A stretch of 64,000 nt of DNA. Origin: an uncultured Anaerolineae bacterium (GTDB lineage Bacteria; Chloroflexota; Anaerolineae; Promineifilales; Promineifilaceae). The stretch is from the NCBI GenBank assembly GCA_937943625.1, contig CALEAD010000041.1, positions 1 to 64,000 on the forward strand, given 5' to 3'. The notes under the pieces were generated by a model that had not been told where the DNA came from, made no database searches, and saw nothing but the letters and a program-made list of their open reading frames with translations. The number at the start of each line of letters is the position of its first letter. The first letter of the stretch is position 1. Made by a program: the position numbers and the translations under genes. Below, piece after piece: positions 142-2,667 of this stretch.

Positions 142-171
142 TTGCATTTTTGGCATAGTTTGGGATATGAT
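142..171 (+). promoter_or_regulatory. Sigma70-type promoter of RNA gene 1
   Basis: A -35 box TTGCAT (142-147) and a -10 box TATGAT (166-171) are 18 bases apart. This predicts transcription from about 178-179, just before the first paired stem of the RNA. The second RNA copy has the same arrangement (TTGAAA, 18 bases, TATGAT), which supports both as real promoters. Confidence 0.65.
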
Positions 172-178
172 AGTGGTC

Positions 179-376
179 AGGCTCGGTTAGCTAAAAGGCT
201 GTGGGAAAACTCCTCCCCCCCAAACTGGCACGAGAGAAACGCGACTGGAACAAGCTAACCGGGCTCAGGGCGAAATCACCCTCCCCATAGCCTTGACGTA
301 GCCCGTTGTTCAGTACACTCCCCTCCTGGTGTCTGGACAGACAAGAGCCGCTCCCCCAAGCGGCTCTTGTTCTTTA
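179..376 (+). ncRNA. Structured pseudoknot RNA, copy 1
   Basis: Stand-alone RNA of about 198 nt with its own promoter and terminator. The 5' strand 180-192 pairs with 253-265 (13 pairs including G-U). Strand 197-205 pairs with 284-292 (9 pairs). The order is A-B-A'-B', an H-type pseudoknot. A further pairing 260-265 with 300-305 is possible and competes with the first stem. The loop 206-252 carries a C-rich run and the block AAACTGGCACGAGA followed by AAACGCGA. Copy 2 repeats the stems with different sequence but the same geometry: 4-base linker, 47-base loop, similar spacing. That is covariation. No open reading frame or adjacent controlled gene is evident. I do not recognise the family; it does not resemble RNase P, tmRNA, SRP RNA or a common riboswitch, and a rod-shaped 6S fold is not seen. 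An unknown trans-acting small RNA is most likely. Confidence 0.7.
341..376 (+). terminator. Rho-independent terminator of RNA gene 1
   Basis: A perfect 12-bp stem (341-352 with 359-370) closes a 6-base loop and is followed by TCTTTAT. It ends the first RNA about 198 nt after its predicted start. Confidence 0.85.
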
Positions 377-450
377 TCTGCAACTAATACACCGATGACG
401 TGCAAAATGCCGGTGCCCACACCCTAACTGTAAATGAGAAGGAATGGCTA

Positions 451-480
451 TTGAAACGCACCTGACAGGCGCGCTATGAT
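451..480 (+). promoter_or_regulatory. Sigma70-type promoter of RNA gene 2
   Basis: TTGAAA (451-456) and TATGAT (475-480) are spaced by 18 bases, matching the promoter of copy 1. Predicted start is near 487, immediately 5' of the first stem strand. Confidence 0.7.
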
Positions 481-486
481 TTTTGT

Positions 487-687
487 AGGCTTAGATGGGA
501 AAGAGACTTGTGGAAACCTTCCTCCCCGAAAAACTGGCACGAGATAAACGCGATAAGATACCCATTTGAGCTAAGGGTAATGCCTCCTCCCACGAGTCTT
601 CGCATTACCTGACTGCGTTCTTGCTTCCCCATATAGCAAGGGCGCACAGACGCAAAGCGCCCTCCTCTGCAGGAGGGCGCTTTGTTT
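487..687 (+). ncRNA. Structured pseudoknot RNA, copy 2
   Basis: Paralogue of the RNA at 179-376, again about 200 nt. Strand 488-499 pairs with 561-572 (12 pairs including G-U). Strand 504-513 pairs with 590-599 (10 pairs). This is the same crossing A-B-A'-B' order with a 4-base linker and a 47-base loop. An 8-bp pairing 576-583 with 602-609 adds a second crossing helix. A hairpin at 613-646 precedes the terminator. Stem sequences differ from copy 1 but pairing is kept, while the loop block AAACTGGCACGAGA/AAACGCGA is nearly identical. Several CCTCC tracts (521-526, 583-590) lie in or next to loops and could pair with Shine-Dalgarno sequences; that role is inference. The terminator separates it from the histidine kinase gene, so a cis-acting riboswitch for 788-2008 is less likely than a free RNA. 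Confidence 0.7.
656..687 (+). terminator. Rho-independent terminator of RNA gene 2
   Basis: An 11-bp GC-rich stem (656-666 with 671-681) with a 4-base loop is followed by a T-rich tail TTGTTTG. Confidence 0.85.
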
Positions 688-787: not shown

Positions 788-2008
788 ATGTCGAATCTCA
801 TTTTTCCTTCCCCCAAGCGACAGGATTCCCATCTTTTGCTCAACAGCGTCAATGTTGTGTTGGTTATTATTACGCTGGTAGGGGTGGTGCCCTCTTTCTT
901 TAATCCCGAGTTTGCCACATGGTCAGGAGAGCGCATCACGTTTTACCTGGCAGGTACAGCCTTTTACCTGATTATGGGTATTGCCGGGTGGGAATGGTTG
1001 GTAGAAAAGCGCCGTCGCTTTGGCCGTATTGTGTACTTTGTGGTGCAAATTGCCCTGGTTAGTTTGCTGCAATGGTTAACACTTTCTGTAAGCAATACGG
1101 GCTGGATTTTAATGATGCCCATTGCTGGCCAGAGCATCAACCTGCCCCGTTGGGGTACGCTGCTGGTGACTCTTTCGCTGATTGCCGGATTTACCTGGTC
1201 AATTACGCGCTTTATCTCGCTGGCAAGCGCGTTCAATGCCATTTTGACGATTTCTGCGGGCATGGCGTTTACCCTCATATTCACTTATGTGGCAGTACGG
1301 GAAGAGCAAGCCCGGCAAGAGGTGGAACGCCTGGCGGAAGAGTTGCAAGAGGCCAACCAACTGCTGCGCGCTTATTCGATCCAGGCGGAAGAGCTGGCCA
1401 TCACCAAAGAGCGCAATCGCCTGGCGCGTGAGATTCACGACAGCCTGGGACATTACCTGACGGTGATTAACGTGCAGTTGCAGGCTGCACAAACGCTGCT
1501 GGAAAATGACTTGCCGCGCGCACGGGCAGCGCTGGAAAAATCGCAAGGGTTGGCGCAAGAAGGGCTGCAAGAGGTGCGACGTTCGGTGGCGGCGCTGCGT
1601 GAGTCGCCTGTGGCACAACGGCCGTTGCCCGAAGCAATTGACGCCCTGTTAGCTGAGCAACGCGCCGCAGGCACAGTAGCAGAACTGACAGTGCACGGAG
1701 AGCCGCGCACACTGGATGCGCCGGTGGCGCTGACGCTGTATCGCGTGGCACAGGAGGGGCTGACAAATGTGCGCAAGCACGCGCGCGCCTCCCGGGTAGA
1801 TGTCACGCTCGATTTTCGCCCGGAAACGGCCGTTGCCCTCACCATTCGCGATAACGGCGTTGGTGCAGAGAGTACCCAAGGGGGGTTTGGCCTGCTGGGG
1901 CTGAAAGAACGAATCGCGCTGCTACAAGGGGAAATGCACATCGAAACGGCCGTGCGCCAGGGGTTCACCCTGCACGTCGCGCTACCAGTTTCAAAGAGCG
2001 GTTTATGA
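788..2008 (+). CDS. Sensor histidine kinase, NarL/DesK type
   Basis: Membrane sensor kinase that autophosphorylates and passes phosphate to the response regulator encoded next. About six hydrophobic segments cover roughly residues 20-170. A short coiled linker (EEQARQEVERLAEELQEA) leads to a HisKA_3 dimerisation domain with the H-box REIHDSLGHYL; His217 is the predicted phosphoacceptor. The C-terminal ATPase domain has an N-box around LTNVRKHARA and a G-box DNGVG followed by GGFGLLGLKER. No extracytoplasmic sensor domain is visible, so the signal is probably sensed within the membrane part (inference). The stop overlaps the start of the regulator gene by 4 bases (ATGA), implying translational coupling. 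No ribosome binding site precedes the ATG, consistent with the near-leaderless promoter. The stimulus and targets cannot be told from sequence. Confidence 0.93.
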   Translation: MSNLIFPSPKRQDSHLLLNSVNVVLVIITLVGVVPSFFNPEFATWSGERITFYLAGTAFYLIMGIAGWEWLVEKRRRFGRIVYFVVQIALVSLLQWLTLSVSNTGWILMMPIAGQSINLPRWGTLLVTLSLIAGFTWSITRFISLASAFNAILTISAGMAFTLIFTYVAVREEQARQEVERLAEELQEANQLLRAYSIQAEELAITKERNRLAREIHDSLGHYLTVINVQLQAAQTLLENDLPRARAALEKSQGLAQEGLQEVRRSVAALRESPVAQRPLPEAIDALLAEQRAAGTVAELTVHGEPRTLDAPVALTLYRVAQEGLTNVRKHARASRVDVTLDFRPETAVALTIRDNGVGAESTQGGFGLLGLKERIALLQGEMHIETAVRQGFTLHVALPVSKSGL

Positions 2009-2667
2009 GTAGGCAACCCATTCGCGTTCTGTTAGTAGACGATCAGCCGCTTTTCCGCGAGGGCTTAGCCGTGCTACTGACAAATCACCCCGGCATCGAG
2101 GTAGTGGGCGAGGCGGGCAATGGGCAAGAAGCACTGGCACAGGTCGCAGCGTGCCAGCCCGACGTGGTATTGATGGATGTGCGTATGCCCGTGCTAGACG
2201 GCGTGGCAGCTACGCGCCTGCTGCACCAACAGCAACCACACCTGCCCGTCATTATCCTGACCACCTTTGACGATGATGATCAGGTATTTGAAGGACTGCG
2301 CGCCGGCGCCGTCGGTTATTTGCTCAAAGATGTCTCGTCACAAAAGCTGGTCGAAGCCATTCAAACGGCCGTGCGTGGCGAAACCTTCCTCCAACCCTCC
2401 ATTGCCGCCAAAGTGGTTGCCGAGCTAAACCGCATCTCACAGGCACAACCAACAACCGTCCAGGCCCACCTGATTGAACCCCTCTCCGAACGAGAGCTGG
2501 AAATTTTGCGTCTTCTGGCCACCGGAGCCAGCAACCGTGAAATTGCGCAGCAGCTATTCATCACCGAAGGCACGGTTAAAAATCACGTCACCAACATTCT
2601 TGGCAAACTCAACGTGCGCGACCGCGCCCAGGCCGTGCTGCACGCCAAAGAGTTGGGTCTCATCTAA
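2005..2667 (+). CDS. Response regulator, NarL/FixJ (LuxR HTH) family
   Basis: DNA-binding partner of the kinase at 788-2008. The N-terminal receiver domain (about 1-125) has the acidic pair DD near residues 12-13, phosphoacceptor Asp58 in VVLMDVRMP, Thr in ILTTFDDD and Lys in LLKDVS. A LuxR-type helix-turn-helix fills about residues 158-220 (LSERELEILRLLATGASNREIA ... GTVKNHV). Length (220 aa) is typical of the family. It overlaps the kinase stop by 4 bases. The ACGGCCGT octamer lies within its coding sequence near 2366. Target genes are unknown; the nearest candidate is its own operon. Confidence 0.95.
   Translation: MSRQPIRVLLVDDQPLFREGLAVLLTNHPGIEVVGEAGNGQEALAQVAACQPDVVLMDVRMPVLDGVAATRLLHQQQPHLPVIILTTFDDDDQVFEGLRAGAVGYLLKDVSSQKLVEAIQTAVRGETFLQPSIAAKVVAELNRISQAQPTTVQAHLIEPLSERELEILRLLATGASNREIAQQLFITEGTVKNHVTNILGKLNVRDRAQAVLHAKELGLI

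Follow-up and report, generated by a model that had tools for sequence, protein, structure and literature searches.

The 64,000-nt window analyzed here, from an uncultured Anaerolineae bacterium of the family Promineifilaceae (contig CALEAD010000041.1, positions 1 to 64,000), contains at positions 142-687 what reads as two consecutive units, each made up of a promoter, a small RNA gene, and a terminator. An earlier note on this DNA had described two tandem RNA genes with TTGnnn-18-TATGAT promoters, terminators, and a common pseudoknot. The coordinates it gave are right, both RNAs have such a promoter and a terminator, and the tandem genes, the shared pseudoknot, and the conserved loop block are borne out by approximately 135 homologues. 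We predict that both units are transcribed as RNA genes. The same genome carries a third copy that the note had overlooked (G000:C34:23211-23333, locus L158).

The elements of the RNA follow one another from 5' to 3' as P1a, P2a, a C-tract with the core, P1b, P3a, P2b, and P3b, where a and b are the 5' and 3' strands of a stem; a hairpin with a C-rich loop (P4) often comes next, and then the terminator (Table 1). P2b lies inside P3, so P2 crosses both P1 and P3. The earlier note had P1 and the crossing P2 right in both copies, but P2 of copy 1 is two pairs longer than it gave, and P3 and the C-rich seed loops had escaped it. Nor had it noticed that in copy 2 the core is missing its CUGGAAC end and the P4 loop has no CCUCC.

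Table 1. Features of the two tandem RNA genes in the window.
Feature	Positions	Strand	Evidence
Promoter, copy 1; sigma-70-like TTGCAT (142-147)-18-TATGAT (166-171)	142-171	+	sequence
RNA, copy 1, ~195 nt (predicted)	179-372	+	covariance model R1 match 180-305, 117 bits
P1 5' strand, copy 1; 13 pairs with 253-265	180-192	+	covariation
P2 5' strand, copy 1; pseudoknot, partner 284-294	195-205	+	covariation
C-tract CTCCTCCCCCCC, copy 1; pseudoknot loop, putative anti-Shine-Dalgarno seed	210-221	+	count of CCTCC by the core in relatives
Ultraconserved core AAACTGGCACGAGAGAAACGCGACTGGAACA, copy 1	222-252	+	comparison with relatives
P1 3' strand, copy 1	253-265	+	covariation
P3 5' strand, copy 1; short, partner 301-304	268-271	+	covariation
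P2 3' strand, copy 1	284-294	+	covariation
P3 3' strand, copy 1	301-304	+	covariation
P4 hairpin, copy 1; loop CCCTCCTGG at 321-329	307-339	+	fold; motif count in relatives
Intrinsic terminator, copy 1	341-372	+	sequence; terminator count in relatives
Promoter, copy 2; TTGAAA (451-456)-18-TATGAT (475-480)	451-480	+	sequence
RNA, copy 2, ~200 nt (predicted)	487-687	+	covariance model R1 match 488-611, 88 bits
P1 5' strand, copy 2; partner 561-572	488-499	+	fold, covariation
P2 5' strand, copy 2; partner 590-600	503-513	+	covariation
Core, copy 2, AAACTGGCACGAGATAAACGCGA, without the CTGGAAC end	531-553	+	sequence comparison
P1 3' strand, copy 2	561-572	+	fold, covariation
P3 5' strand, copy 2; partner 602-610	575-583	+	fold, covariation
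P2 3' strand, copy 2	590-600	+	covariation
P3 3' strand, copy 2	602-610	+	fold, covariation
P4 hairpin, copy 2; loop CTTCCCC, without CCTCC	613-646	+	fold
Intrinsic terminator, copy 2	652-687	+	fold, sequence

Single-sequence folding gave z-scores of -4.0 (copy 1) and -5.6 (copy 2) relative to shuffled sequences. In a pairing test that requires no alignment, the 5' and 3' windows of each stem were paired either within one sequence or, after swapping, between different sequences from a set of 66 non-redundant full-length copies. Own pairing was stronger than swapped pairing for P1 (-18.5 versus -12.5 kcal/mol, z = -16.8), P2 (-24.6 versus -19.9 kcal/mol, z = -11.0), and P3 (-14.7 versus -12.3 kcal/mol, z = -7.8); a control window gave z = -0.1, and none of 5000 permutations matched the value of any of the three stems. 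Across 97 matches, in an alignment that was itself fitted to P1 and P3, 87.4% of the P1 and P3 cells were paired and all 19 pairs showed two-sided changes (424 such cells versus 118 after shuffling), while shifting the partner by one column lowered pairing to less than 50%. For P2, eight sequences, picked for having P2 in one register, were aligned with MAFFT from sequence only; 96 of 96 cells were paired and 11 of 12 pairs had two-sided changes, a result reached in 0 of 500 shuffles. At least eight consecutive P2 pairs were present in 19 of the 20 sequences of a wider set, and a P2-only model with 72 matches was 92.7% paired, with 315 two-sided cells versus 93 after shuffling; neither these P2 values nor those for P1 and P3 were reached in any shuffle. 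These explicit counts across homologues uphold the compensatory stem changes that had been claimed from the two window copies, and we are all but certain that both the family and the RNA structure are genuine. The interlocked P1, P2, and P3 with compensatory change, together with a core of the form AACUGGCAC-n-AAACGCGA, define the family and were found in it.

The block AAACTGGCACGAGANAAACGCGA, allowing up to 3 mismatches, was present in nearly all 52 genomes of Promineifilaceae, the family to which Promineifilum belongs, and a reversed control pattern almost nowhere. The covariance model R1, built on P1 and P3 only, matched 47 of the 52 family genomes and all 22 genera at 1-8 copies per genome; the search of Chloroflexota genomes that the earlier note had proposed thus recovered homologues with compensatory changes. 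In large scans, the matches among 298 genomes of the class were confined to Promineifilaceae members, the approximately 280 genomes of the class outside the family gave no match, and the sole match among 301 phylum-wide genomes was the window's own genome; the class and phylum scans used stricter filters, which strongly diverged relatives may escape. No match was found among INPHARED phages or PLSDB plasmids. A near-exact scan for the core in 84,980 species genomes returned 104 stretches, and the titles shown for these were Anaerolineae or Chloroflexota metagenome-assembled genomes, some of them Promineifilum, except for five Acinetobacter matches. The latter (L050, L063, L066, L096, and L112) lack the flanking structure and were rejected as homologues; L050 and L063 gave no match when scanned with the covariance model, and the five look like chance or coding matches. 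The viral contig L208 was likewise rejected: it fits a loose pattern, but the remainder of the core is absent. The RNA is near-universal, multicopy, and strongly structured in a bacterial family known chiefly from environmental metagenomes, and that its core is conserved in 22 genera implies a partner that is essential or central. The covariance model makes the family directly searchable and testable.

In 61 of the 66 non-redundant full-length copies, a -10-like box is found in the 22 nt 5' of P1a, most commonly at a distance of 6-8 nt; therefore, transcription should begin at P1a or immediately 5' of it. Of the 66 copies, 57 have a terminator after the core, versus 1 of 66 after shuffling. 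CCTCC (CCUCC in the RNA) adjoins the core in 68 of 71 non-redundant copies, and a downstream motif of the CCCTCCTGG type, the CCCUCCUGG loop of the RNA, is present in 38 of 66 copies versus 0.24 expected from shuffles. The flanking genes differ from locus to locus, and the downstream gene is reversed in approximately 44% of loci; by this context, the element is an RNA gene that acts in trans and not a leader. At approximately 14 loci from several genera (L100, L126, L125, L110, L120, and L160 among them), a gene for a YacP-like NYN-domain nuclease (PF05991) lies on the same strand approximately 80-160 nt 5' of the RNA. This arrangement may be the ancestral locus or may reflect a functional link; the window's own genome has YacP, but not adjoining the RNA.

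Copies of the RNA also occur on phages and probable mobile elements. A tailed-phage contig of IMG/VR (IMGVR_UViG_3300030397_001184) carries a full-length copy (L136:3343-3465) between genes for an HNH endonuclease and the terminase large subunit, and what looks like a portal gene follows the terminase gene. A 57-kb viral contig (IMGVR_UViG_3300037470_000663) carries a core-only form with the terminator directly after it (L137:11780-11897); an HNH gene is also present there, and its terminase-like and portal-like genes, like the portal gene of the first contig, were assigned by reading their sequences rather than by Pfam. The host assigned to the viral contigs is a putative one, suggested by the RNA itself. 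Short forms in genus g5 have the core inside a GUGGCC/GGCCAC stem (L064:4888-4990, L036:7250-7360, L071, L035, and L037) and adjoin genes for a P22-type antirepressor (P22_AR), a ParA-like protein, or a family-B DNA polymerase; these loci are probably mobile elements.

None of the 4227 Rfam families reached its gathering score in the whole 64-kb window or in seven relatives, in keeping with the earlier note, which did not recognize the class. The low-stringency matches (BTnc231 at 27.6 bits; ar14) were weak and scattered, driven by C-rich loops and terminators, and membership of ar14 (RF02344) was rejected at 25.6 and 21.4 bits versus a gathering score of 58.8. The ar14/NfeR1/SmelA075 family of Rhizobiales comprises free-standing small RNAs (sRNAs) whose several C-rich CCUCC loops pair with ribosome-binding sites and whose stems vary while the loops are conserved (PMC3927594, PMC10746234); anti-Shine-Dalgarno (anti-SD) silencing has been demonstrated for NfeR1 (PMC10746234). 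Both families are free-standing sRNAs with C-rich CCUCC loops. However, ar14 consists of three simple hairpins with CCUCCUCCC loops, whereas the Promineifilaceae RNA is a double pseudoknot with C-rich segments in the P1/P2 loop and P4, and its 31-nt core is absent from ar14. The name CcsR refers to C-rich anti-SD loops. CcsR1-4, the cuckoo RNAs of alphaproteobacteria, are tandem homologous sRNAs tied to an RNA-binding protein (PMC10253847). The window genes are also tandem and homologous; however, the CcsRs are cut from one transcript by RNase E, whereas each Promineifilaceae copy has its own promoter, terminator, and knot, and a link to DUF1127 was not seen. By analogy, the RNA may work like these anti-SD sRNAs while belonging to neither group. 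6S RNA (RF00013) is a similar type of gene, a stable RNA of approximately 180-200 nt, but no 6S model match was found in the window, and a separate 6S gene is present elsewhere in the genome at G000:C3:70640-70816 and in most relatives. Chloroflexi-1 RNA (RF01698) is a candidate structured RNA reported from Chloroflexus aggregans (PMC2864571), a member of the same phylum; the Promineifilaceae RNA has no Rfam match. The gene type, a structured bacterial sRNA, is known, while the family, the double pseudoknot, and the core are not in Rfam. We found no description in the open-access literature; most subscription journals were outside this search, so an earlier description is possible.

The gene anatomy, structure, distribution, and independence from neighboring genes are established, and we infer a mode of action, including targets, a protein partner, and a role in phages. 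Our tentative preference, held with a little less than even confidence, is for a lineage-specific, multicopy, free-standing sRNA that silences by anti-SD pairing. Each copy would have its own sigma-70-like promoter and terminator, with transcription starting at P1a, and would fold into the interlocked pseudoknot, displaying one long loop with the C-tract CUCCUCCCC and the invariant 31-nt core, often followed by a second loop, CCCUCCUGG. By pairing with GGAG/GAGG in the Shine-Dalgarno regions of target mRNAs, the C-rich loops would block translation. The core, which probably binds a protein, would be where a dedicated RNA-binding protein docks, with KhpA/KhpB as candidates, and the copies on phages and mobile elements would exploit or titrate this machinery. 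The CCUCC by the core and the CCCUCCUGG loop suggest anti-SD seeds on a knotted scaffold. The 16S 3' end reads CACCUCCUUU (GGATCACCTCCTTTT in two relatives), and GGAG/GAGG occurs at -18 to -3 in 26% of long open reading frames versus 6-9% of controls, an approximately 3- to 5-fold enrichment 5' of starts. Pairing of P2a with the neighboring C-tract, as a conformational switch, was rejected because own pairing was no better than that with swapped partners (z = +1.7); thus, the C-tract is probably exposed. Anti-SD silencing is favored because the C-rich loops complement the Shine-Dalgarno sequence and the C-tract shows no selection for pairing with its neighbor. Hfq was not detected in the six genomes searched; all six encode KhpA-sized KH proteins, and five encode KhpB-sized ones. 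The RNA thus offers a handle on post-transcriptional control in Chloroflexota, in genomes where Hfq was not found.

Several observations weigh against anti-SD silencing. Predicted C-tract duplexes at translation starts (6.7%) were barely above those in control regions (5.4%), and no target emerged; P4 and its CCUCC loop are absent from many copies, copy 2 among them; the invariance of the 31-nt core is left unexplained by such pairing; and the transcripts, like their transcription, are predicted from the DNA. Complementarity of the core to 16S or 23S rRNA was rejected as an explanation, as its runs of 9-11 were equaled by shuffled cores. Nearly as likely is a protein-sequestering or ribonucleoprotein-scaffold RNA with a logic like that of 6S or CsrB, a serious possibility in which the core and C-tract would bind an abundant RNA-binding protein, copy number and expression would set the level of free protein, and mRNA pairing would be incidental. 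The conservation of the core far exceeds what an mRNA seed needs, the core is unpaired in the model, the RNA is multicopy, and the mobile-element forms (L036, L064, L071, and L137) keep just the C-tract and core, enclosed in a simple stem or followed by a terminator, as a decoy might. However, the CCCUCCUGG loop of P4 is conserved apart from the core, which suggests a second, RNA-directed contact, and no partner protein is positionally linked except for the YacP-like NYN gene at the one apparently ancestral locus.

A further proposal, possible but somewhat doubtful, is a new RNA class whose invariant core docks a dedicated protein, a global post-transcriptional hub in bacteria lacking Hfq; tailed phages and mobile elements would mimic this RNA, in some cases with core-only decoys, in order to take over or titrate the hub. 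The copies on such elements imply that the RNA is worth carrying for parasites. The interlocked pseudoknot with its long invariant unpaired segment also resembles the anatomy of aptamers and ribozymes, but a free-standing ligand-binding or catalytic RNA, with the knot and core as aptamer or active site, is unlikely, as no particular downstream gene or expression platform accompanies it, the core-only versions lack the knot, and cores with 2-nt deletions are tolerated in diverged copies. A transposon guide or mobility RNA, such as an OMEGA or bridge RNA, would fit the multicopy state and the presence in some mobile elements; with sigma-70-like promoters and terminators on the chromosomal copies and no recurrent fitting nuclease or recombinase gene adjacent, it is very improbable. 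We give even less credence to a cis-regulatory leader (a riboswitch or attenuator) that would control the next gene through its terminator, a reading that the context already contradicts. The terminator does lie 3' of the structure, and in the window a histidine kinase gene lies approximately 100 nt further on, but the downstream genes share neither direction nor functional coherence and are unrelated between loci, both window copies come with a promoter and a terminator, and the kinase, regulator, and ClpP neighbors of the window are not kept beside the RNA in relatives.

The region downstream of the RNAs (window positions 788-2667) contains genes for the histidine kinase (HisKA_3) and a LuxR-type response regulator. 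A subtype with the core AAACTGGCACAAAAGAAACGCGA occurs in L046, L078, L083, L129, and relatives in genus g22, with several copies per genome; an additional hairpin separates P2a from the C-tract in some of these copies, and the CCCUCCUGG loop of P4 is absent from most. Further tandem pairs, approximately 250 nt apart and with shortened cores, are present at L190:2668-3024 and L193:2316-2673, and are diverged or decaying copies.
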